Shown: positions 31,364 to 41,043 of the stretch, piece after piece
Position numbering within the stretch: the first letter of the stretch is position 1
How the letters are laid out: each line of letters starts with the position of its first letter
Assembly: GCA_019752045.1 (NCBI GenBank)
Contig: JAIEMP010000009.1
Location: forward strand, 1 to 64,000
DNA: 64,000 bases
Source: Chitinophagaceae bacterium
GTDB taxonomy: Bacteria > Bacteroidota > Bacteroidia > Chitinophagales > Chitinophagaceae
Direction: 5' to 3'
The notes under the pieces: model-generated
Database searches by the model: none
Seen by the model: only the letters and a program-made list of their open reading frames with translations
Told to the model about the DNA's origin: nothing
Made by a program: the position numbers and the translations under genes

Positions 31364-34300
31364 ATGCCAAAACTCAGAAAATTACTGCTTACAACAGCAG
31401 CCGTATTCATCTCCATGTTTGTTGTTGCGCAGGTTACTACCAGTAGTATTTCAGGAATTGTAAAAGACAAGAATGGAGCACCTTTAGAAGGAGCTACCAT
31501 AACAGCTACCCACTTACCCACCGGTACTGTTTATAATACTGTTTCAAAAAAGGGTGGAATCTTCAACATCCCCAACTCAAGAATTGGCGGACCGTACAGG
31601 TTAAAAGTTGAATTTGTTGGTCAGAAAGCGTATGAAATTGAAGGCTTTTCTCTTTTACTCGGAGAGCCGTATGATATTAAGATAGATATGAGTGAAGATG
31701 TGAAGCAAATCACAGAAGTAGTGGTTACCGGCGGAAGAAGAAGAGGTGCTGTTGAAAAAACAGGAGCTTCAACTAATATTAACCAACGCTTACTTACAAG
31801 CATCCCAACCATTAACCGTTCGGTTGCTGGTTTCACAGCCCTTACTCCACAGGCAAACGGAACCAGCTTTGCAGGTAGAGATGGCCGTTATAACAACCTC
31901 CAGATTGATGGTGCAAACCTCAACAACAACTTTGGTTTAAGCAACGACCCCTTACCCGGCGGATCTAACCAGCCTATTTCGCTGGATGCGGTGGAAGAAG
32001 TTTCTGTAAATATCTCTCCCTTTGACGTTTGGCAGGGAAGCTTTACCGGCGCAGGTATTAACGTTGTAACCAAAAGTGGTACAAATACATTTAAAGGAAG
32101 TGCTTATACACTGTTCCGCACAGAAAAAATGAATGGTACAAATGCTGCTGATACTAAAATTACAGGTATCACTAAGCAAACAAATAATATTTATGGAGCT
32201 ACATTGGGTGGCCCAATTGTAAAAAATAAATTGTTTTTCTTTTTAAGTGCCGAGTATGAAATTGTTGACCGTCCGGGCATTACTTTTTCTCCAAGAGGAG
32301 GTTCCGGTTTAGGAAACGTTTCCAGTACGCCAATTGATTCGTTAAGAAAATTATCTGATAACTTACGTACAAGATACGGATATGAGACAGGTGCGTTTGA
32401 TAACTTCCCTAATTTTAAAACAGAGAATTATAAGTTACTTGGAAAGATAGACTGGAACTTAAGCCGTATTCATAAAGTAACGATGCGCTACCAGGAAATG
32501 GTAGGGTATGATGATGTTGTCACCAACAATGCATCAATCCCTAACGCATCGCCGTTTGTGCCAGCCGGAGGTACATCACGTACTGCTCTTCCAAATAACC
32601 GTTTTGGATTAAACTCTATGTCATTTGCTAACTCAACTTATGCATTCGACAATATTGTTCGTTCAGGTGCTTTTGAAATTAACAGTTCAAAAAGCGGTAA
32701 CTGGGCTAACCAGTTTATTTCAACGTTTACCAGCGTAAGCACTATACGCAGTACACCAAGTGCGCCTTTTCCGTTTGTTGACATTTTTAATGGCGCCGGT
32801 TCAAACTACATGAGTTTTGGTCTTGAGCCATTTTCTAATAACAACCAGGTTAAAAACAGAATTTTTAATATTACCAATAACTTCAAATATTATGCGGGTA
32901 AACACACCGTTACAGTTGGTGCAAGTTATGAGCAGCAATATGTAGGTAATATGTTTATGCCGGGTTCGCAAAGTCATTATGTATACAATACATTAGATGA
33001 TTTTATAAACGACCGTGCTCCTGTTTTTTACTCTTATAATTTCTCCTTGATTAAAGACAAACCTGCTGTATTCTCAGCAGAATTAAAAATCGGTCAGTTG
33101 TCTGCTTATGTGCAGGACGACATCAATGTAAACGAGCGTTTAAAAGTAACACTTGGTGTAAGAGCCGATCAGCCGGTGTATCTTGAGAGAGCTTTGGAAA
33201 ATCCAAACATCAAAGCACTTTCATTTCCTGATCAGGACGGTCGTTTAAAAAATTACAGCACTGCACAGTGGCCAAAAGCACGGGTATTGTGGAGCCCACG
33301 TATTGGATTCCGTTGGGATGCTGCAGGTGATAAGAGCATTATTATCCGTGGTGGAACAGGTTTGTTTACAGGCCGTATTCCATTTGTATGGTTAACCAAC
33401 ATGCCATCTAACAGCTTCATGTATCAGCAGGGTTCTGCTATTACAAGCTCTGCTACATTATCAGGTATTACATTTAATCCTGCTGCCGATGCTTACAAAG
33501 GTTTATTTACACCAACACAAGGTGTATTACCAAACAATGCAAATATTGTATTGATTGATCCTGAATTTAAATTCCCGCAGGTTTGGAGAACAAACATTGC
33601 TGCTGAAAAACGTTTTGCAAACGGATGGAGCGTTTCATTTGAAGGCTTATTTACAAAAGATGTAAATGCCGTTAAAATGCGCAACGCCAATCAAAAGGCA
33701 CCTGATGCACGCTTCTTAACTGCAGATAACAGACCATATTATACACAGCCGAATGTAACAGGCCGCAGATTGTATACAAACATCGGTTCAGCCATTATTC
33801 TGGAGAATACAAAGAAAGGCGGTGGTATTGCATTAACTGCGCAGTTAACCAAAACATCTAACAAAGGTTTCTCCGGTTCATTTGCATACACGTACACTGC
33901 AGCTTGGGATATTACATCAAATCCCGGATCTATTGCCAACTCAACCTGGTTAGGTAATGCAGCAGTAGGAACACAAAATGATGAAGAACTGGCTTACGGC
34001 GGAAATGCAATTCCTCACCGTTTTGTAGCTTATGTTACTTACCGTGCAGAGTACATTAAACACCTCGGAACTTCTGTTACGCTCTTTTATCAATCAAGCA
34101 ACCAGAATAACTTCAGCTTCATTACAAACGGAGATTTGAATGGCGATGGTAACAGCTCTGATCTGATGTACATCCCGAAGGATCAGTCTGAAATGAATTT
34201 TGTTGCAATTACCGGTGCAAACCCCTGGAGTGTACAGGCACAAAGAGATGCTTTTGAAAAATACATCAATGCATCACCTTACCTGCGCAAGCGCAGAGGT

Positions 34301-34639
34301 CAGTATGCAGAACGTAATGCAGCTTTACAACCATGGGTACACACTTTAAACCTCAACTTTCAGCAGGATGTGTTTACCAACATTGGTAAAAGAAAACATA
34401 CACTGCGTTTCCAGGCCGATGTGTTGAACTTTGCAAACATGATTAACAAGAACTGGGGATTACGTTTCCTCAGTACTCTCAGCGGTAACAATCCTTTACA
34501 GGTTGCTAGTGTTACAGGTGGTGTACCATCATACCGTATGACACTCGTAAACGGCCAGTTACCAACTACTCCATTCCAGATTAACCGCTCATTAGCGAGC
34601 ACCTGGAGTGCACAGCTTGGTTTCCGTTACATCTTCTAA
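31364..34639 (+). CDS. Oar-like TonB-dependent receptor with carboxypeptidase-regulatory domain
   Basis: A 1091-residue outer-membrane protein with a signal peptide (ending VVAQ). The N-terminal CarboxypepD_reg domain (SGIVKDKNGAPLEGATITA) is followed by a plug (TEVVVTGGRRRG, then VAGFTALTPQANGTSFAGRDG) and a large barrel with the Oar signatures NINVVTKSGTN-like GINVVTKSGTNTFKGS and GGPIVKNKLFFFLSAEYE, ending in LGFRYIF with the terminal Phe. The Oar family, first seen in Myxococcus, lacks a typical siderophore-receptor substrate; some members export or import proteins. It stands alone, closed by a clear intrinsic terminator. Confidence 0.92.
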   Translation: MPKLRKLLLTTAAVFISMFVVAQVTTSSISGIVKDKNGAPLEGATITATHLPTGTVYNTVSKKGGIFNIPNSRIGGPYRLKVEFVGQKAYEIEGFSLLLGEPYDIKIDMSEDVKQITEVVVTGGRRRGAVEKTGASTNINQRLLTSIPTINRSVAGFTALTPQANGTSFAGRDGRYNNLQIDGANLNNNFGLSNDPLPGGSNQPISLDAVEEVSVNISPFDVWQGSFTGAGINVVTKSGTNTFKGSAYTLFRTEKMNGTNAADTKITGITKQTNNIYGATLGGPIVKNKLFFFLSAEYEIVDRPGITFSPRGGSGLGNVSSTPIDSLRKLSDNLRTRYGYETGAFDNFPNFKTENYKLLGKIDWNLSRIHKVTMRYQEMVGYDDVVTNNASIPNASPFVPAGGTSRTALPNNRFGLNSMSFANSTYAFDNIVRSGAFEINSSKSGNWANQFISTFTSVSTIRSTPSAPFPFVDIFNGAGSNYMSFGLEPFSNNNQVKNRIFNITNNFKYYAGKHTVTVGASYEQQYVGNMFMPGSQSHYVYNTLDDFINDRAPVFYSYNFSLIKDKPAVFSAELKIGQLSAYVQDDINVNERLKVTLGVRADQPVYLERALENPNIKALSFPDQDGRLKNYSTAQWPKARVLWSPRIGFRWDAAGDKSIIIRGGTGLFTGRIPFVWLTNMPSNSFMYQQGSAITSSATLSGITFNPAADAYKGLFTPTQGVLPNNANIVLIDPEFKFPQVWRTNIAAEKRFANGWSVSFEGLFTKDVNAVKMRNANQKAPDARFLTADNRPYYTQPNVTGRRLYTNIGSAIILENTKKGGGIALTAQLTKTSNKGFSGSFAYTYTAAWDITSNPGSIANSTWLGNAAVGTQNDEELAYGGNAIPHRFVAYVTYRAEYIKHLGTSVTLFYQSSNQNNFSFITNGDLNGDGNSSDLMYIPKDQSEMNFVAITGANPWSVQAQRDAFEKYINASPYLRKRRGQYAERNAALQPWVHTLNLNFQQDVFTNIGKRKHTLRFQADVLNFANMINKNWGLRFLSTLSGNNPLQVASVTGGVPSYRMTLVNGQLPTTPFQINRSLASTWSAQLGFRYIF

Positions 34640-34660: not shown

Positions 34661-34688
34661 AAAAAACCCGCTTTAGAGCGGGTTTTTT
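34661..34688 (+). terminator. intrinsic terminator after the Oar-like gene
   Basis: Perfect 12-bp stem AAAAAACCCGCT / AGCGGGTTTTTT (34661-34672 with 34677-34688) with a TTAG loop, ending in a T-tract. Because its A-tract mirrors the T-tract it can also serve the convergent esterase gene. Confidence 0.88.
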
Positions 34689-34731: not shown

Positions 34732-35544
34732 TTAATGTTTGTACCCCCAGCCCCATTTCAAAAATGCAGGAAAGGCTCTTGCCCATGTGGGCACATCATG
34801 TGAGCCATCTTCGAGTTGCAGATATTTGATCGCCTGATCTTTAAAACCTTTTTCTTTAAGCGCTTTTATTAAATCCATAGCGTCATCAATTGAATCAATA
34901 ATACCATTATTGTTGCGGTCTTTTTTTTCATCCATGCTTCCGGTTTGGATAAAAAATTTTTGCCACAGTGCTGCCTTACCTGACTTTACCTGGTTATGCA
35001 TGATGCGGTCGGCTTCATCGGTATAACCATCTTCATAAGCTTTCTGTCTCCACCATAATGAGGGTGAAAACAATCCAGCCTTACTGAATTCTTCCGGATG
35101 GTTCCAGACAATATCCATGGCCATTAAGCCACCCAGAGAAAACCCGGCAAAGGCTTTCTCGTTGAAATGAGGTATATGATATTTCTTACGGATAAAAGGA
35201 AGTACTTCTTCAAAAATGAACGACGTATAATCCGCTGCTTTAGCACCTCGGCCTAAATAATCAATTTGACCGGCTACGCCATATTCCATTTTTCGTTGTG
35301 GTCCGCAATGTATGCCGGCACAAAGAATGGGTTCAACCTCTTCGTAATAATAAAGTTCATTTAATATATTCTGGAAAGGCATTTTGGGAAGATCCTGTCC
35401 GTCGTTAATCAGCAGCAAGGTCATTTTCTCAGGATGTTTTACATGCGTAGGTAAATAAACATCTACCTGTACATCCCGATCCAGTATTTCTGATCTCCAT
35501 TTATTTTCTTCAAGAAGTATACTCTGCTGCTGTTCCGTTTGCAT
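34732..35544 (-). CDS. alpha/beta-hydrolase, enterochelin-esterase-like
   Basis: A 270-residue cytoplasmic hydrolase (no signal peptide) of the esterase D/Fes-like family (Pfam Esterase). The nucleophile is Ser136 in GFSLGG; His249 in DGSHDVPTW completes the triad. Between strands lies D209-R-N-N-N-G-I-I-D-S-I-D220, a perfect EF-hand-type Ca-binding loop pattern. The family cleaves ester bonds of siderophores, S-formylglutathione and similar small acyl compounds. It begins 142 bp from the divergent ATP-grasp gene, so it probably belongs to the amidoligase cluster to its right, perhaps releasing or editing its product. Confidence 0.82.
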   Translation of the reverse strand: MQTEQQQSILLEENKWRSEILDRDVQVDVYLPTHVKHPEKMTLLLINDGQDLPKMPFQNILNELYYYEEVEPILCAGIHCGPQRKMEYGVAGQIDYLGRGAKAADYTSFIFEEVLPFIRKKYHIPHFNEKAFAGFSLGGLMAMDIVWNHPEEFSKAGLFSPSLWWRQKAYEDGYTDEADRIMHNQVKSGKAALWQKFFIQTGSMDEKKDRNNNGIIDSIDDAMDLIKALKEKGFKDQAIKYLQLEDGSHDVPTWARAFPAFLKWGWGYKH

Positions 35545-35686
35545 ACGTTCAAAAATAAGTAATAAGCATTAAAATAATTTTCTAACCCTTCGTTAATCTT
35601 ACAAAATTGTGTGCTATATTGAAGGTATAATAGCTCATTGCTCCAGGTATCAGACTTCAATTTTTAATTGACAAAAAAATACAATT

Positions 35687-36640
35687 ATGAAAAAGATCGG
35701 CATTCTCCATGGTAAAGAGCGCTCATTCCCTACTGCATTTGTTGAGCGGATTAACAGGAAACAAATTGATGGAATTATGGCAGAGCCCGTATTAATTGAT
35801 AAAGTTGTACAGGGTGTTGGCAATGGCTATACGGTAATAGTAGATCGTATTTCACAGGATGTTCCGCATTACAGAGCCTATTTAAAAAATGAGGCCATCA
35901 CCGGTACAGCAGTCATCAACAATCCGTTTTGGTGGAGTGCAGATGATAAGTTTTTCAATAACTGTCTGGCTACTAAAATTGATGTGCCTGTTCCTAAAAC
36001 GGTGATCCTTCCTTCAAAAGAAAGACCCGATGATACCAGCAATGAATCGTTCAGCAACCTTGCATATCCTATGGATTGGGAAGGAATGTTTAACTATATC
36101 GGGTTCCCTGCATACATGAAACCATTTGCAGGTGGTGGCTGGAAGAATGTTTACAAACTAAACGATGCTGCAGATTTTTTTGAGAAGCATGCAGAAACCA
36201 ATCAACTGGTGATGTTACTGCAGGAAGAAATTGTGTTTGAAGAATATTACCGCTGTTATTGCATTGGCCGCAAATATGTGCGCATCATGAGCTATGAACC
36301 ACGCAACCCGCATCATTTACGTTATGTAGCCGATTTTCAACCTTCGGCTGAAAAATTACAAATGATGACCGACATTGTATTACGCATCAACAATTATCTG
36401 GGATACGATTTTAATACAGTAGAACTTGCATTACGAAATGGTGTACCTTATGCCATTGATTTTTGTAACCCTGCACCTGATGCAGATCTTGCCAGTGTTG
36501 GGGAAGAAAATTTTGAATGGGTAGTTGAGGCTGCTGCTACTTATGCCATAGAACGTGCAATGGAGCATAAAGAAGGTGCAGATAATTTAACCTGGGGCGA
36601 GTATGTAAAACGTGGAGCAAATAAAGTTCCCTTGTATTAA
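35687..36640 (+). CDS. ATP-grasp ligase, RimK/DdlB-like
   Basis: A 317-residue protein with the ATP-grasp layout: Lys145 in AYMKPFAGGGWKNV (nucleotide-binding loop), Glu180-Glu181 in MLLQEEIVFEEYY (hinge), and the metal-binding triad Glu246, Asp258 and Asn261 in TVELALRNG and AIDFCNPAPD. It joins a carboxylate to an amine or other nucleophile through an acyl-phosphate, using ATP. It heads a two-gene unit with the YbdK-type ligase (26 bases apart). An extended N-terminal domain holds RSFPTAFVERIN, the pattern of several amino-acid-ligase ATP-grasps. Substrate unknown. Confidence 0.8.
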   Translation: MKKIGILHGKERSFPTAFVERINRKQIDGIMAEPVLIDKVVQGVGNGYTVIVDRISQDVPHYRAYLKNEAITGTAVINNPFWWSADDKFFNNCLATKIDVPVPKTVILPSKERPDDTSNESFSNLAYPMDWEGMFNYIGFPAYMKPFAGGGWKNVYKLNDAADFFEKHAETNQLVMLLQEEIVFEEYYRCYCIGRKYVRIMSYEPRNPHHLRYVADFQPSAEKLQMMTDIVLRINNYLGYDFNTVELALRNGVPYAIDFCNPAPDADLASVGEENFEWVVEAAATYAIERAMEHKEGADNLTWGEYVKRGANKVPLY

Positions 36641-36666
36641 TCACATCATTTATTGAAATCATTCTC

Positions 36667-37779
36667 ATGGGTAATATCAATTATAAACAGTTTACGCTTG
36701 GTGTTGAAGAGGAATACATGGTATTTGATCCTGCAACCAGAGAACTCAAAAGTCATGAACAGCGGATTGTAACAGAAGGTCAAAAAATGATCAAGGATAA
36801 AGTAAAAGCAGAAATGCATCAGGCAGTGGTAGAAGTGGGCACCGATATTTGCATGGATATTGGTGAAGCTTTTGCAGATGTTTCGCTGTTACGCAAAACC
36901 ATCAGTGGTATTGCAGGAGATATTGGTTTGGCAGTAGGTGCAAGTGGTACGCATCCCTTCAGTCATTGGCAGGATCAGCTCATTACAGACCATGTACGTT
37001 ACAACCAGATTGTAAACGAATTGCAGGAAGCTGCAAGAAGTAATTTAATTTTCGGTTTGCATGTGCATGTAGGTATTGAAAACAGAAAGCTGGCCATTCA
37101 TCTTGCCAACTCTGCACGTTATTTTTTACCACATGTGTATGCGCTCAGCACCAACTCCCCTTTTTGGGAAGCACGGATGACGGGATATAAATCATTCCGT
37201 ACAAAAGTGTTTGATAAATTTCCACGTACAGGTATCCCTGAATTTTTCGACAGTATTGAAGCGTATGAAAATTATGTTGCATTGCTCATAAAAACCAATT
37301 GCATTGACAATGCAAAAAAAATATGGTGGGATCTGCGTGTGCATCCGTTTTTTAACACCATCGAATTTCGTATTTGTGATGTACCAATGACTGTAATGGA
37401 AACCATTGCTATTACTGCTTTGTTTCAGGCCATTACGGCCAAGCTGTATAAACTGAGAAACAAGAACATGAATTACATTCAATACCAGCGTGCATTGATT
37501 AATGAAAACAAATGGCGGGCAAGCCGTTATGGTATTGATGGATACCTCATTGACTTTGGTAAAGAAGAAGAAACCAATACAAGAGCTCTCATTTATGAAC
37601 TGCTTGATTTTGTAGATGATGTGGTGGATGAATTGGGCTGCAGGCATGCACTGAGCTATATACCGGTTATGCTGGAGCAGGGAACCGGAGCAGACAGACA
37701 ATTGAAAGTATATGAACAAACCAAGAGCATGGAGAGTGTGGTAGATTATATTGGCGGGCAGTTCCTGAGTGGAATCTGA
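36667..37779 (+). CDS. YbdK-type carboxylate-amine ligase (GCS2 family)
   Basis: A 370-residue member of the GCS2 / glutamate-cysteine ligase 2 family (COG2170, E. coli YbdK). The opening LGVEEEYMVFDP holds the acidic metal ligands, followed by HQAVVEVGTDIC, SGTHPFSHW, GLHVHVGI and NTIEFRICDVPMT, all conserved. YbdK has weak gamma-glutamylcysteine ligase activity, making gamma-glutamyl amides from an amine and glutamate with ATP. The length is the family norm. It follows the ATP-grasp gene and converges with the other two cluster genes at the 25-bp-arm palindrome, suggesting a biosynthetic role in an unknown peptide-like product. Confidence 0.88.
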   Translation: MGNINYKQFTLGVEEEYMVFDPATRELKSHEQRIVTEGQKMIKDKVKAEMHQAVVEVGTDICMDIGEAFADVSLLRKTISGIAGDIGLAVGASGTHPFSHWQDQLITDHVRYNQIVNELQEAARSNLIFGLHVHVGIENRKLAIHLANSARYFLPHVYALSTNSPFWEARMTGYKSFRTKVFDKFPRTGIPEFFDSIEAYENYVALLIKTNCIDNAKKIWWDLRVHPFFNTIEFRICDVPMTVMETIAITALFQAITAKLYKLRNKNMNYIQYQRALINENKWRASRYGIDGYLIDFGKEEETNTRALIYELLDFVDDVVDELGCRHALSYIPVMLEQGTGADRQLKVYEQTKSMESVVDYIGGQFLSGI

Positions 37780-37800
37780 TTTGTATAAATACAGCATTGA

Positions 37801-37852
37801 ATGAATGATAAGAAAGGCCGACTCAAATGAGTCGGCCTTTCTTATCATTCAT
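37801..37852. terminator. perfect palindromic bidirectional terminator
   Basis: Two exact 25-base arms (37801-37825 and 37828-37852) meet over two bases. The core GGCCGACTCA stem has A-rich flank on one side and T-rich on the other on each strand, so it can end transcription from both convergent ligase genes. Confidence 0.9.
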
Positions 37853-37858
37853 GTAAAA

Positions 37859-39052
37859 CTATTGTTCAAAATAAGCAACGGTACCTCCTACCCATTCCTT
37901 ATCCTTATTGTACCGCACACCAATCATTTTCCCTTTGCTCATCCGTGCAAGGTTAATCACAGCATGTGGCCTTGCATCACCGTCCCGCCAAACATACATC
38001 ATCCGGATTTCTACTTTGGCCGGCACATCAGGCGTTTCAATAATTTCTGCATAATTCACTTTGCGTTGAAGAATAAAATTCTCCGGATCATTAATTGCAT
38101 CAAGATCATCTTGTGTAACATCAATTTTTACACCCTGTCCGGCAAAAGAGAACAATGGTTTTAACACATAATTCTCCAAACCATCAGGAAGCTCTTTTAC
38201 TTCATTCAGGAAAAAAGTCTGAGGTACATATGGGTGGTTGATAAAAGGCAATGTGTATTTGCTGATGCGGTAAAACCAATTGGGATGCGGCAGCCATTCT
38301 ACATCCAGATACTGTGTAATATCTACAACATCTCCCAAGCTGGCTTTATTTGCTTTAAGATCATCAAAAATGATCCGGTTGTAAATACGTTTGATTAACG
38401 TCTTTACTCCATCTTTCAGATAATACAGTTTTCGTCCTTCCTGTATCAATTTGGTTAAACAAACCACTTCAATACCTGTATAATCTTTTGTACAGGAAAA
38501 ATCAATTCTGGTTTTTTGTTCTTCGGGTTTAATTTCAAGCAGGATCACTTGCTCAACCGGCAGGTCTCCAACAATTAACTCCCTTAGCATTTTTATATAA
38601 CTCTCTTTTGTATAACCGTTGAGGTATTGACTGTAATTAGATGGTACAGGAAAATGTTTTTCAACAACTTCGGGATAATAAACCTGAAAGCCATACAATG
38701 TAGGAAAGCCCTGCATCTCTATCAATTGCGGTTCAAGTTCGCCACGATCATTTTTGCACACGCCAAAATCAAATGAGATCATGTGTGAGATGGATGCTTC
38801 ATTGGGTACTTTTTCGCCGGGAGGAATTGCTTTCTCTGTTAATGCAATAAAGTTGGGATCACAGATCACATCAATAATACTTTCACATGCATCCATCAGC
38901 TTATCTCCAAATTCTTTATCAACAAATACAGGTGTTTCGCATACCCTGAATTCAATATCTCCGGGATGCAGACTGTTGAGATCGTTTAAAAAAGCTTCGT
39001 ACTTAGCTGCCGAAAAATGTGCATTAAATGTTTTACGTAAGTCCGGTACCAT
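37859..39052 (-). CDS. ATP-grasp-like ligase, possibly circularly permuted
   Basis: A 397-residue protein of no named family. It carries ATP-grasp-type elements in unusual order: an acidic motif LIEMQGFPTLYG (Glu112, Gln114) lies N-terminal, while the nucleotide-binding-like YVLKPLFSFAGQGVKI (Lys298), FILQRKV and EIRMMYVW (Glu348) plus NLARMSKGKMIG follow in the C-terminal third. Placing the metal-binding motif before the Lys-Gly loop is what a circularly permuted ATP-grasp (as in glutathionylspermidine synthetase) would look like. It is the second gene of the minus-strand pair, 50 bases after the amidotransferase-like gene. Reaction and substrate unknown; its assignment rests on motifs I can see. 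Confidence 0.6.
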   Translation of the reverse strand: MVPDLRKTFNAHFSAAKYEAFLNDLNSLHPGDIEFRVCETPVFVDKEFGDKLMDACESIIDVICDPNFIALTEKAIPPGEKVPNEASISHMISFDFGVCKNDRGELEPQLIEMQGFPTLYGFQVYYPEVVEKHFPVPSNYSQYLNGYTKESYIKMLRELIVGDLPVEQVILLEIKPEEQKTRIDFSCTKDYTGIEVVCLTKLIQEGRKLYYLKDGVKTLIKRIYNRIIFDDLKANKASLGDVVDITQYLDVEWLPHPNWFYRISKYTLPFINHPYVPQTFFLNEVKELPDGLENYVLKPLFSFAGQGVKIDVTQDDLDAINDPENFILQRKVNYAEIIETPDVPAKVEIRMMYVWRDGDARPHAVINLARMSKGKMIGVRYNKDKEWVGGTVAYFEQ

Positions 39053-39102
39053 AGAAGATCGTTTGTCTTCTAAAAATATTTGATTTTAACCAGAAAACTA
39101 AA

Positions 39103-39948
39103 TTAAACTGTAACAGGAGTCATGGAGAAAAAAGCCCTGTAAAGAAAATTAGGGAGTATATGAGAATAAGTATACAAAATTTTATCAGGATCTTCCAGAT
39201 GTTCGATCATACTCTTCCATTTTTCGAACCCGTGATTATCAATCACTGTTTTCTTTTTCTCTTCAGTTTGCAGATACATGCTCATGCCAATGGCATCTGC
39301 TTCGGGATGAAATTGTGTGCCAATCATAAACTCATTAAAGCGTACAGCCATAATTGCACGTTCAAGTGCTACATGCGGCCGGTCTTTTTCTATACACAGC
39401 AACTTTGCGCCAATAGCTTTTAAATGCTGATGATCCGGTTGTATTACCTGATAATCCCTGCTGTCTACTGCATAGAACGGATCTTTTAAACCATCAAACA
39501 CCAATTCATCATCAGCACCATTCATGAGATGAACAGGAAATACACCAAATGCAGTTGACTTACGGGCACATACCTGACCAACTTCAAAATAACGGCAGGC
39601 CAGTTGAAAAGAATGACAAATAAAAAAAACGTGCTTTTTATTTTCTTCCAGAGGATTGTCGTTCCATTTTTTGATGTTTGAAATCCAGGAGAAAAAATGT
39701 TTTTCCCACTCAGTTCCTTTGCTTTCAAGCGGACTGCCCGGACCGCCGGAAGAAATATAAACATCATAAGAAAGATCAGGCAATTCTTGTTTAGTTCTAA
39801 CATCAAACTCATCCCACACTACATTTAATTGCTGCCCTTCTGCAAACTGAAGCAGAATGTCTCTTATACAACGCATGCCCTGATTAGGAAACCCATCGTA
39901 CAGATCAAGAACCGCAACCCGAACATGTTTTGCATTGGTACCACTCAT
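39103..39948 (-). CDS. class I glutamine amidotransferase-like protein
   Basis: A 281-residue protein of the GATase1 / GMP synthase-like fold. SSGGPGSPLES gives the oxyanion-region strand; the nucleophile is Cys111 in FFICHSFQLACRYF; His214 and Glu216 in QFHPEAD complete the triad. The elbow is Phe-Ile-Cys-His-Ser where the family norm is Gly-Ile-Cys-Leu-Gly, so both glycines are replaced. It may hydrolyse glutamine to supply ammonia, cleave a gamma-glutamyl bond, or have lost turnover. It leads the minus-strand pair with the ATP-grasp-like gene and converges on the YbdK pair, forming one functional cluster. Confidence 0.8.
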   Translation of the reverse strand: MSGTNAKHVRVAVLDLYDGFPNQGMRCIRDILLQFAEGQQLNVVWDEFDVRTKQELPDLSYDVYISSGGPGSPLESKGTEWEKHFFSWISNIKKWNDNPLEENKKHVFFICHSFQLACRYFEVGQVCARKSTAFGVFPVHLMNGADDELVFDGLKDPFYAVDSRDYQVIQPDHQHLKAIGAKLLCIEKDRPHVALERAIMAVRFNEFMIGTQFHPEADAIGMSMYLQTEEKKKTVIDNHGFEKWKSMIEHLEDPDKILYTYSHILPNFLYRAFFSMTPVTV

Positions 39949-40062: not shown

Positions 40063-41043
40063 TTAAAGGCTGTTTAAAAAACTGATAATACCGCTTAAAC
40101 TGCTTAATTCGGGTTTAATAAATGCAACTGTTGCTGCCGATGTTTTTTCATCTTTCACTCCCAAATAATAACTGCCACCAACTTTTGAAATTGCTACAAA
40201 GGTAACTTCCTGATTAACGGGTATATTAGGGAAAGCGAAAGAACGGGTTGATACATTACCTGATAATTGAACAACTGTTCGGCTGTTTTTAAATACCATA
40301 TATACCGCCGTATTTGCATTGGAAAATAAATTTGGAACTACTGCTTTCACTTCAACTCTTGGCTGTACTGTTTCAAGTGATTTACCTGCGCTTATCCATC
40401 CTGATTGAAAGGTTTCAATGATATAACCCTTTGCTAAAGGATTGATGTTTGTTGAATCCCACAATTTCACAACTGCATTATCTGTAGCCAGCGACCAGTT
40501 AAACAATAAAGAATTTGTAACAGTTGCAGGGCTGCCATAAAAAACACTCATACCGGGTTTGGGCTCTGTATCACGGTAACGGATACTGATTTTTTTATTC
40601 CCCGCCAGTGTAACAGGTTGCCCGTTAGAAGTGAGTTTTACATGAAGAGCACCTCCTGATTCAAGGGGATACCTGCTTGCACTGGTTGTAACACCGTAAC
40701 GAATAAAGTCTCCTTTCTTTTGCAGCAACACATATTCAATCTTTAAACCACCGGTTAATGCTATGCCGTTTAAGAGAAGACCATTTAAAGGAAACATAAA
40801 CTGAACAGCATTTGCAGCGTTAACCAATGTATCAGTCATAACATTGTTCACCTCGTGCACATTAAAACTTCCTTCCAGTTGCTTCGATAAAATAAGCACC
40901 TGAGAAGAGGCTGTAATATTATTTGTCCATGCACTGTCTAATTGCTGCCCGTTATCAGGCACAAATTCATCGGTATTTTTTTTGCAGGAAGCAAAAAGTA
41001 AAATGATGAGACATACATGTGTAGCAAAAAAAATCTTCTTCAT
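40063..41043 (-). CDS. beta-rich lipoprotein, unknown function
   Basis: A 326-residue lipoprotein with lipobox FASC (Cys20) and the usual Lys-rich tail. Beyond the signal the sequence is strand-rich with repeated short motifs (VQFMFPLNGLLLNG, FAFPNIPVNQEVTFVAI, GGSYYLGVKDEKTSA), suggesting two beta-sandwich domains; no family is recognised. It lies 72 bp downstream of the Dma-like gene and may be co-transcribed with the ECF sigma unit, so it could be part of or a target of that regulatory system. Terminated by a hairpin at 40017-40038. Function not assignable. Confidence 0.72.
   Translation of the reverse strand: MKKIFFATHVCLIILLFASCKKNTDEFVPDNGQQLDSAWTNNITASSQVLILSKQLEGSFNVHEVNNVMTDTLVNAANAVQFMFPLNGLLLNGIALTGGLKIEYVLLQKKGDFIRYGVTTSASRYPLESGGALHVKLTSNGQPVTLAGNKKISIRYRDTEPKPGMSVFYGSPATVTNSLLFNWSLATDNAVVKLWDSTNINPLAKGYIIETFQSGWISAGKSLETVQPRVEVKAVVPNLFSNANTAVYMVFKNSRTVVQLSGNVSTRSFAFPNIPVNQEVTFVAISKVGGSYYLGVKDEKTSAATVAFIKPELSSLSGIISFLNSL

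Follow-up and report, generated by a model that had tools for sequence, protein, structure and literature searches.

What could a bacterium of the Chitinophagaceae make with three ATP-dependent ligases and two putative hydrolases that are encoded side by side? This question is raised by five contiguous genes in the window, that is, the stretch of 64,000 nucleotides of contig JAIEMP010000009.1 (assembly GCA_019752045.1) that was analyzed here. The genes are referred to as EST1 (34732..35544, minus strand), encoding a Fes/enterochelin-esterase-like alpha/beta hydrolase (PF00756) divergent from RIMK; RIMK (35687..36640, plus strand), encoding a RimK/LysX-like ATP-grasp ligase; YBDK (36667..37779, plus strand), encoding a carboxylate-amine ligase of the GCS2/YbdK family; AG2 (37859..39052, minus strand), encoding an ATP-grasp ligase with the predicted fold of glutathione synthetase, glutathionylspermidine synthetase and YgiC; and GAT (39103..39948, minus strand), encoding a class I GATase-like hydrolase. 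A preliminary description, made from the sequence alone, had listed these genes as contiguous with no unrelated gene between them, and all five are indeed open reading frames at these coordinates with no other plausible gene in their midst. We consider it reasonably probable that a small peptide or pseudopeptide, perhaps gamma-glutamyl in nature, is assembled by the three ligases, and that it is trimmed or recycled by one or two esterases together with a peptidase that is exchangeable between carriers.

Co-conservation and gene order

Each of the 198 whole genomes of a class sample was searched with all five proteins. Co-conservation, the absence of which the preliminary description had named beforehand as its refutation, was found: RIMK and GAT occur in an identical set of 29 genomes, AG2 in 28 (among the RIMK/GAT carriers only G118 has none), YBDK in 26 (missing among these carriers from G001, G142, and G166) and EST1 in 23, all of them within the 29. 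Two matches were left out of these counts (YBDK in G068, 30% identity, E-value 3.6e-6; RIMK in G035, 34% identity, E-value 3.5e-60), fragments of RIMK in G119 and G160 were included, and EST1 was counted only at E-values of 1e-30 or below. Fisher values for joint presence, which ignore relatedness, are 3e-27 or smaller. A better sign of co-inheritance is given by seven families that mix carriers and non-carriers (f1, f3, f4, f12, f41, f50, and f51), across which the genes move nearly as a block, and one genus is itself split between a genome with the system (G058) and one without (G188). The grouping of the five genes is far beyond chance. It does not depend on linkage, since genes that are unlinked are still jointly present: in G110 a single 5.1-Mb contig carries RIMK-YBDK at 1.58 Mb and AG2 at 4.77 Mb, and AG2 is on a separate contig from RIMK, YBDK, and GAT in G066. 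In G001, G066, G129, G142, and G166, EST1 is close to neither RIMK nor AG2.

The commonest gene order, present in 13 of 27 class loci, has EST1 on one strand and EST2, RIMK, YBDK, GAT, and AG2 following one another on the other, EST2 being a second esterase gene that the window locus lacks. The division into one divergent and two convergent units given in the preliminary description therefore holds for the window and is not the usual form; the convergent layout is a rearrangement of this colinear operon, without EST2. Gene order was also determined around the best 80 of at least 583 confirmed close matches to AG2, the titles of which name Chitinophagaceae and its genera, Sphingobacteriales, Bacteroidetes, and uncultured bacteria. 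Together with AG2 these loci contain GAT in 66 cases, YBDK in 15, RIMK in 14, and EST1 in 10, all of which are lower bounds on linkage as some loci are on short contigs. The operon is thus often split there into RIMK-YBDK and GAT-AG2, and the convergent layout of the window recurs once (L096). In L063, from Niastella yeongjuensis DSM 17621, RIMK, YBDK, GAT, and AG2 follow one another in this order on one strand. A further 40 loci were chosen as AG2 places from a search of the phylum, except L201-L203, which were taken for RIMK/YBDK. Counts for the class loci and the further loci are based on a simple longest-open-reading-frame pick, by which a few overlapping genes seen by tblastn were lost.

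The ligases and the esterases

The family assignments of the preliminary description were borne out at different levels, with the Esterase, GCS2, and GATase models matched above their cut-offs, RIMK matched below threshold, and AG2 placed by fold only. YBDK is the clearest case. It matches GCS2 (PF04107) at 196.7 bits against a cut-off of 21, exceeds the cut-offs of NCBIfam NF010039 (511 against 371 bits) and TIGR02050 (286.2 against 176.4 bits), and matches the PDB entry 1r8g at an E-value of 5.1e-47. The GhExE signature, described as the Mg/ATP signature of YbdK/GCS2 ligases in the relevant passages of PMC2588565, is present, with G12, E14, E15, and E16 invariant in 20 aligned rows.

RIMK remains below threshold to RimK/LysX models, including TIGR00768 (28 bits against 143.4, E-value 1.3e-6), and by its sequence we place it as an ATP-grasp protein with RimK/LysX likeness outside the RimK family TIGR00768. 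It does not reach the cut-off of the R2K clade ATP-grasp model PF18299 either (14.4 bits, cut-off 26.2), a model matched at an E-value of 0.01 or below by two of 20 aligned RIMK sequences. In 15 of these 20 proteins a Lys-rich, mostly also Ala/Pro-rich, C-terminal tail extends beyond the catalytic domain; the window RIMK has no such tail. The tails of L048 (4346-5716) and L050 (12559-14322) are long and contain six and ten RGRP/RGRK units, respectively, which we take to resemble AT hooks, and the other 13 are shorter, Lys-rich, and H1-like.

No Pfam or NCBIfam family was matched by AG2 at an E-value of 0.1 or below. An AlphaFold model was built from 27 sequences (mean predicted local distance difference test score, pLDDT, 90.5) and compared with the PDB using Foldseek. 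The top match is the glutathionylspermidine-synthase-like structure 3n6x (E-value 3.2e-14), and further matches include yeast and human glutathione synthetases, Escherichia coli YgiC and YjfC, homoglutathione synthetase, and fungal Cp1B. By their titles all 26 PDB chains at an E-value of 0.001 or below belong to the glutathione/glutathionylspermidine synthetase superfamily, at 10-18% identity to AG2, and the model accordingly places AG2 in this superfamily by predicted fold. Within it, the YgiC, YjfC, and glutathionylspermidine synthetase structures (7uk8, 7uka, 7uk6, and 2io7) are among the top 20 PDB matches, at 12-18% identity; the likeness is one of predicted fold, and AG2 has no Pfam match. 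The relevant passages of PMC12568646 describe YgiC and YjfC as peptidylpolyamine synthetases, and Cp1B as joining epoxysuccinate to an amino acid in a fungal, E-64 type pathway that is independent of non-ribosomal peptide synthetases.

AG2 is a widespread family without a curated name, present in 92 of 296 phylum genomes (a draw that overlaps the class draw), and its best named match is in a Chitinophagaceae metagenome-assembled genome (L110, 79%). At L197:8137-10740 one frame of 867 amino acids has a sodium:solute symporter (PF00474) ahead of AG2, possibly a transporter-ligase fusion as judged from the frame; in G444, of the same genus, the AG2 frame has 535 amino acids.

EST1 matches the Esterase family PF00756 at 85.4 bits (cut-off 22). 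The more specific assignment as an enterochelin esterase was rejected (NF007758, 37.5 bits against 222; nearby siderophore genes were not searched for). A nearly invariant D-R-N-x-N-x-x-I-D-x-I-x-D stretch, starting at residue 209 and also present in relatives, looks like a calcium-binding EF-hand-type loop. At L041:14963-16525 EST1 is fused in frame with a DinB/mycothiol-S-transferase-like domain (PF12867). EST2 is a shorter alpha/beta hydrolase (PF00756 at 29.3 bits in the one protein examined) with 24-28% identity to EST1 over the aligned parts. The nearest protein in the window genome, on contig C6, has 31% identity to EST2; on the EST2 profile it reaches 188 bits, whereas the operon EST2 members mostly reach 302-434 bits, and it is therefore doubtful as a stand-in for EST2.

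GAT, its exchange with M29 and the proposed pathway

The role of GAT bears most directly on what the system does. The protein matches GATase (PF00117) at 36.6 bits (cut-off 22.8), and residues C111, H214, and E216, which by the motif we presume to form a Cys-His-Glu triad, are invariant in 24 aligned rows. In comparison of the predicted structure (pLDDT 93) with solved folds, the top match is the Arabidopsis gamma-glutamyl peptidase 1 (E-value 2.4e-13, TM scores 0.68/0.77), closely followed by MetA (3.9e-13), a Thermotoga GATase (4.4e-13), and DnfC (1.3e-12). Gamma-glutamyl peptidase 1 and DnfC occupy ranks 1-3 and 9, and at 15-18% identity they resemble GAT in its predicted fold. As the matches are nearly level, fold alone singles out neither a peptidase nor an amidotransferase.

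More can be learned from what replaces GAT. Four loci (L167, L169, L170, and L173), each from a different family outside the class, have a protein of one other family in the place of GAT between YBDK and AG2, and the two of these proteins examined by Pfam both match Peptidase_M29 (PF02073; 64.7 and 63.5 bits). GAT and this operon-type M29 occur together in none of 147 loci. The exchange also holds genome-wide in 43 genomes searched for M29, in which matches of the operon type have 63-100% identity: GAT was not found in any of the four genomes with operon-type M29, and the search detected operon-type M29 in none of the 36 genomes that have GAT, six of which contain only paralogs of at most 33% identity. 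Two genomes (G202 and G198) have neither, and G352, the GAT status of which is outside the comparison, has an M29 paralog at 36%. In a tree of YBDK from 44 loci the M29 loci do not form one clade, and at least four changes are needed, three of them forced by well-supported branches. Since an unrelated peptidase replaces GAT, GAT would be expected to cut a peptide bond, which is hard to square with ammonia supply. The four genomes and the top fold match thus make it more likely that GAT hydrolyzes a peptide than that it supplies ammonia. Of the label class I amidotransferase-like in the preliminary description the domain stands, and the protein is probably a peptidase-type hydrolase.

CarA-CarB and GatD-MurT are ammonia-channeling amidotransferase pairs, and GAT and AG2 might likewise act together to cap a carboxylate as a primary amide, the acid being made by RIMK and YBDK. 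Such a role would agree with GAT and AG2 being the tightest pair at the best 80 AG2 loci, far ahead of RIMK and YBDK, with the class I GATase domain and its invariant Cys, His, and Glu, and with the solved GATases among the close fold matches. It is at odds with the presence of M29 in the GAT slot of genomes in which GAT was not found elsewhere, and with the top fold match being a peptidase. Furthermore, AG2 is accompanied by RIMK and YBDK but by neither GAT nor M29 at L164, L168, L174, and L182; two of the genomes concerned carry GAT elsewhere and two carry none. We regard ammonia channeling by GAT and AG2 as rather unlikely.

The pathway that we favor would be a dedicated one of the Bacteroidota and presumably cytosolic. 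YBDK, RIMK, and AG2, which represent two folds, would form amide bonds stepwise between amino acids or amines, with the carboxylates activated as acyl phosphates. YBDK would probably make a gamma-glutamyl or similar amide, to which RIMK would add, and AG2 would attach the last residue or amine; its relatives in fold use gamma-glutamyl dipeptides or polyamines. GAT, or M29 in its place, would remove an N-terminal or gamma-glutamyl residue in trimming, deprotection, or turnover, and EST1, elsewhere also EST2, would cleave the product or a precursor at an ester or amide by hydrolysis. The preliminary description had likewise proposed a dedicated pathway for a peptide-like metabolite. That the system is a dedicated one is upheld by the co-conservation of the esterase, the GATase-like protein, and the YbdK ligase with the two ATP-grasps, whereas a gamma-glutamyl or other small-molecule product is presumed, and a peptidase is more probable than the amidotransferase of the label. 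Its remark that an obvious ribosomal precursor is absent agrees with the small frames (at least 20 amino acids) between core genes: the 27 class loci have 33 such gaps with 99 frames, each of them present in two loci at most, and these gaps give no sign of such a precursor.

Several observations weigh against this pathway. YBDK is missing in three of the 28 AG2 genomes (G001, G142, and G166), and the gamma-glutamyl step would thus not always be needed and is perhaps replaceable or optional. At 14 of the 40 further loci no other core gene is near AG2, which may therefore have a role of its own. The GATase fold fits a glutaminase partner equally, glutaminases and MetA scoring near gamma-glutamyl peptidase 1, and RimK-type ligases also modify proteins. 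In addition, an Amidohydro_3 gene (a family identified from three proteins examined by Pfam) abuts or overlaps AG2 on the same strand in L178, L179, L181:10737-12263, and L200:6591-8060, with no GAT nearby. The occurrence of AG2 beside different kinds of hydrolases fits a pathway that makes and cuts a product, and it would also allow an independent role of AG2.

If RIMK and AG2 modified macromolecules, the system could serve in protein or ribosome tagging, with the RIMK-like and AG2 ligases adding amino acids to a protein and GAT or M29 removing them. The basic tails of 15 of the 20 aligned RIMK proteins, with AT-hook-like repeats in two, could dock on nucleic acid and would suit this function, but the window RIMK has no tail, and outside the 80 close loci no other neighbor recurs in more than five of 67 loci, that is, no recurring target lies beside the operon. 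YbdK and glutathione-synthetase-type enzymes are, to our knowledge, enzymes of small molecules. Tagging is consequently held to be improbable.

A glutathione-like thiol that replaces glutathione or bacillithiol is very improbable. The resemblance is that glutathione biosynthesis by a GCS2-type GshA and a eukaryote-type glutathione synthetase likewise joins a GCS2-family ligase, here YBDK of the gamma-glutamyl-cysteine-ligase family, and a glutathione-synthetase-fold ligase in one operon, so that the pair mimics GshA-GshB; the one EST1 with a fused DinB domain, which has relatives among thiol transferases, also points in this direction. Unlike that pathway, the present set includes esterases, a peptidase that can be exchanged, and one more ligase, and AG2 has 10-14% identity to the listed glutathione synthetases. 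Moreover, BshC of bacillithiol synthesis is encoded in 187 of the 198 class genomes, including the window genome and every carrier, which leaves no vacancy to be filled, makes replacement of bacillithiol unlikely, and led us to reject the system as a filler of such a vacancy. G095 has both the system and a strong GSH-S_ATP match (E-value 1.2e-67); most matches of this model (PF02955) over the 198 genomes have E-values of about 1e-16 to 1e-24, however, and these may represent proteins of the RimK type.

The RIMK tails also leave room for a nucleic-acid-docked version of the system, which we judge highly improbable: RIMK would be anchored at the nucleoid or ribosome by its H1-like or AT-hook tail, and YBDK, AG2, and GAT or M29 would build and remove a peptide there independently of the ribosome, or, alternatively, the lysine-rich tail would be a carrier or acceptor. 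If true, the Bacteroidota would have a form of peptide tagging, or a peptide metabolite, of a new kind. Anti-phage defense and a mobile element were rejected, as none of the five proteins matches a PADLOC model at an E-value of 0.001 or below and neither AG2 nor RIMK has a match in 72,556 plasmid records.

The favored small-molecule pathway would not be without precedent in its principle. A 2009 survey by Iyer et al. in Mol BioSyst reportedly covered amidoligase operons in which ligases that differ in fold are linked to each other and to a peptidase. The combination of ATP-grasp and COOH-NH2 ligases in one operon is on record in the relevant passages of PMC4431377, as is a GCS2-sized ligase adjoining a GATase-like thiol peptidase in those of PMC2588565, and as far as these passages go the linked-ligase operon is already known. 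In the E-64 type pathway, Cp1B (9cjn), with a glutathione-synthetase fold like that predicted for AG2, couples a free acid and an amino acid according to the corresponding passages of PMC12568646; that cluster further includes an oxygenase and an adenylating amide bond synthetase, and neither has a counterpart among the five proteins. No description of the present gene set was found in the open-access papers searched, among which the 2009 amidoligase survey was not included. As about one seventh of the sampled class genomes (29/198) carry the system, its product would be a widespread metabolite of the Bacteroidota that is missing from metabolism maps. AG2 and RIMK represent ligase families without a curated model over threshold and might be of use in amide synthesis.

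DNA features and neighboring genes

In the window the two-gene units RIMK-YBDK (26-base gap) and GAT-AG2 (50-base gap) converge on a perfect inverted repeat (37801..37852), with arms of 24 bases (37801-37824 and 37829-37852) and a 4-base loop, for which a folding energy of -41.8 kcal/mol (z -13.3) was calculated. The shared palindromic terminator of the preliminary description is hence real as a palindrome, and it is possibly a bidirectional terminator. There is no T tract after the repeat, which is probably why it is absent from the list of the terminator scan. That scan gave four sites of the intrinsic type in the region, against 4.0 expected from shuffles. A terminator-like hairpin with a T tract (34661..34688, plus strand) is located between an upstream outer membrane protein gene and EST1. 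The divergent gap between EST1 and RIMK (35545..35686, 142 bases) may be a shared promoter region, as judged by position only, and the promoter scan of the region yielded no excess over shuffles (21 promoter-like sites against 17.4, standard deviation 3.9).

On the other side of GAT, the gene at 40063-41043 encodes a protein without a Pfam match. The outer membrane protein gene (31364-34639) adjoins EST1 in four of the 80 close AG2 loci and was judged to be local context. An Amidohydro_3 gene is located upstream of GAT-AG2 on the same strand in nine of these 80 loci (L058, L061, L066, L069, L101-L103, L107, and L125), and from such arrangements this family is a possible further partner. A small Cupin_2 gene is near the core genes in 19 of the 80 loci (e.g., L084:9207-9524), and in 16 of the 19 it was computed to be downstream of AG2 on the same strand (four of the relative neighbor positions are wrong or negative owing to gene overlaps).

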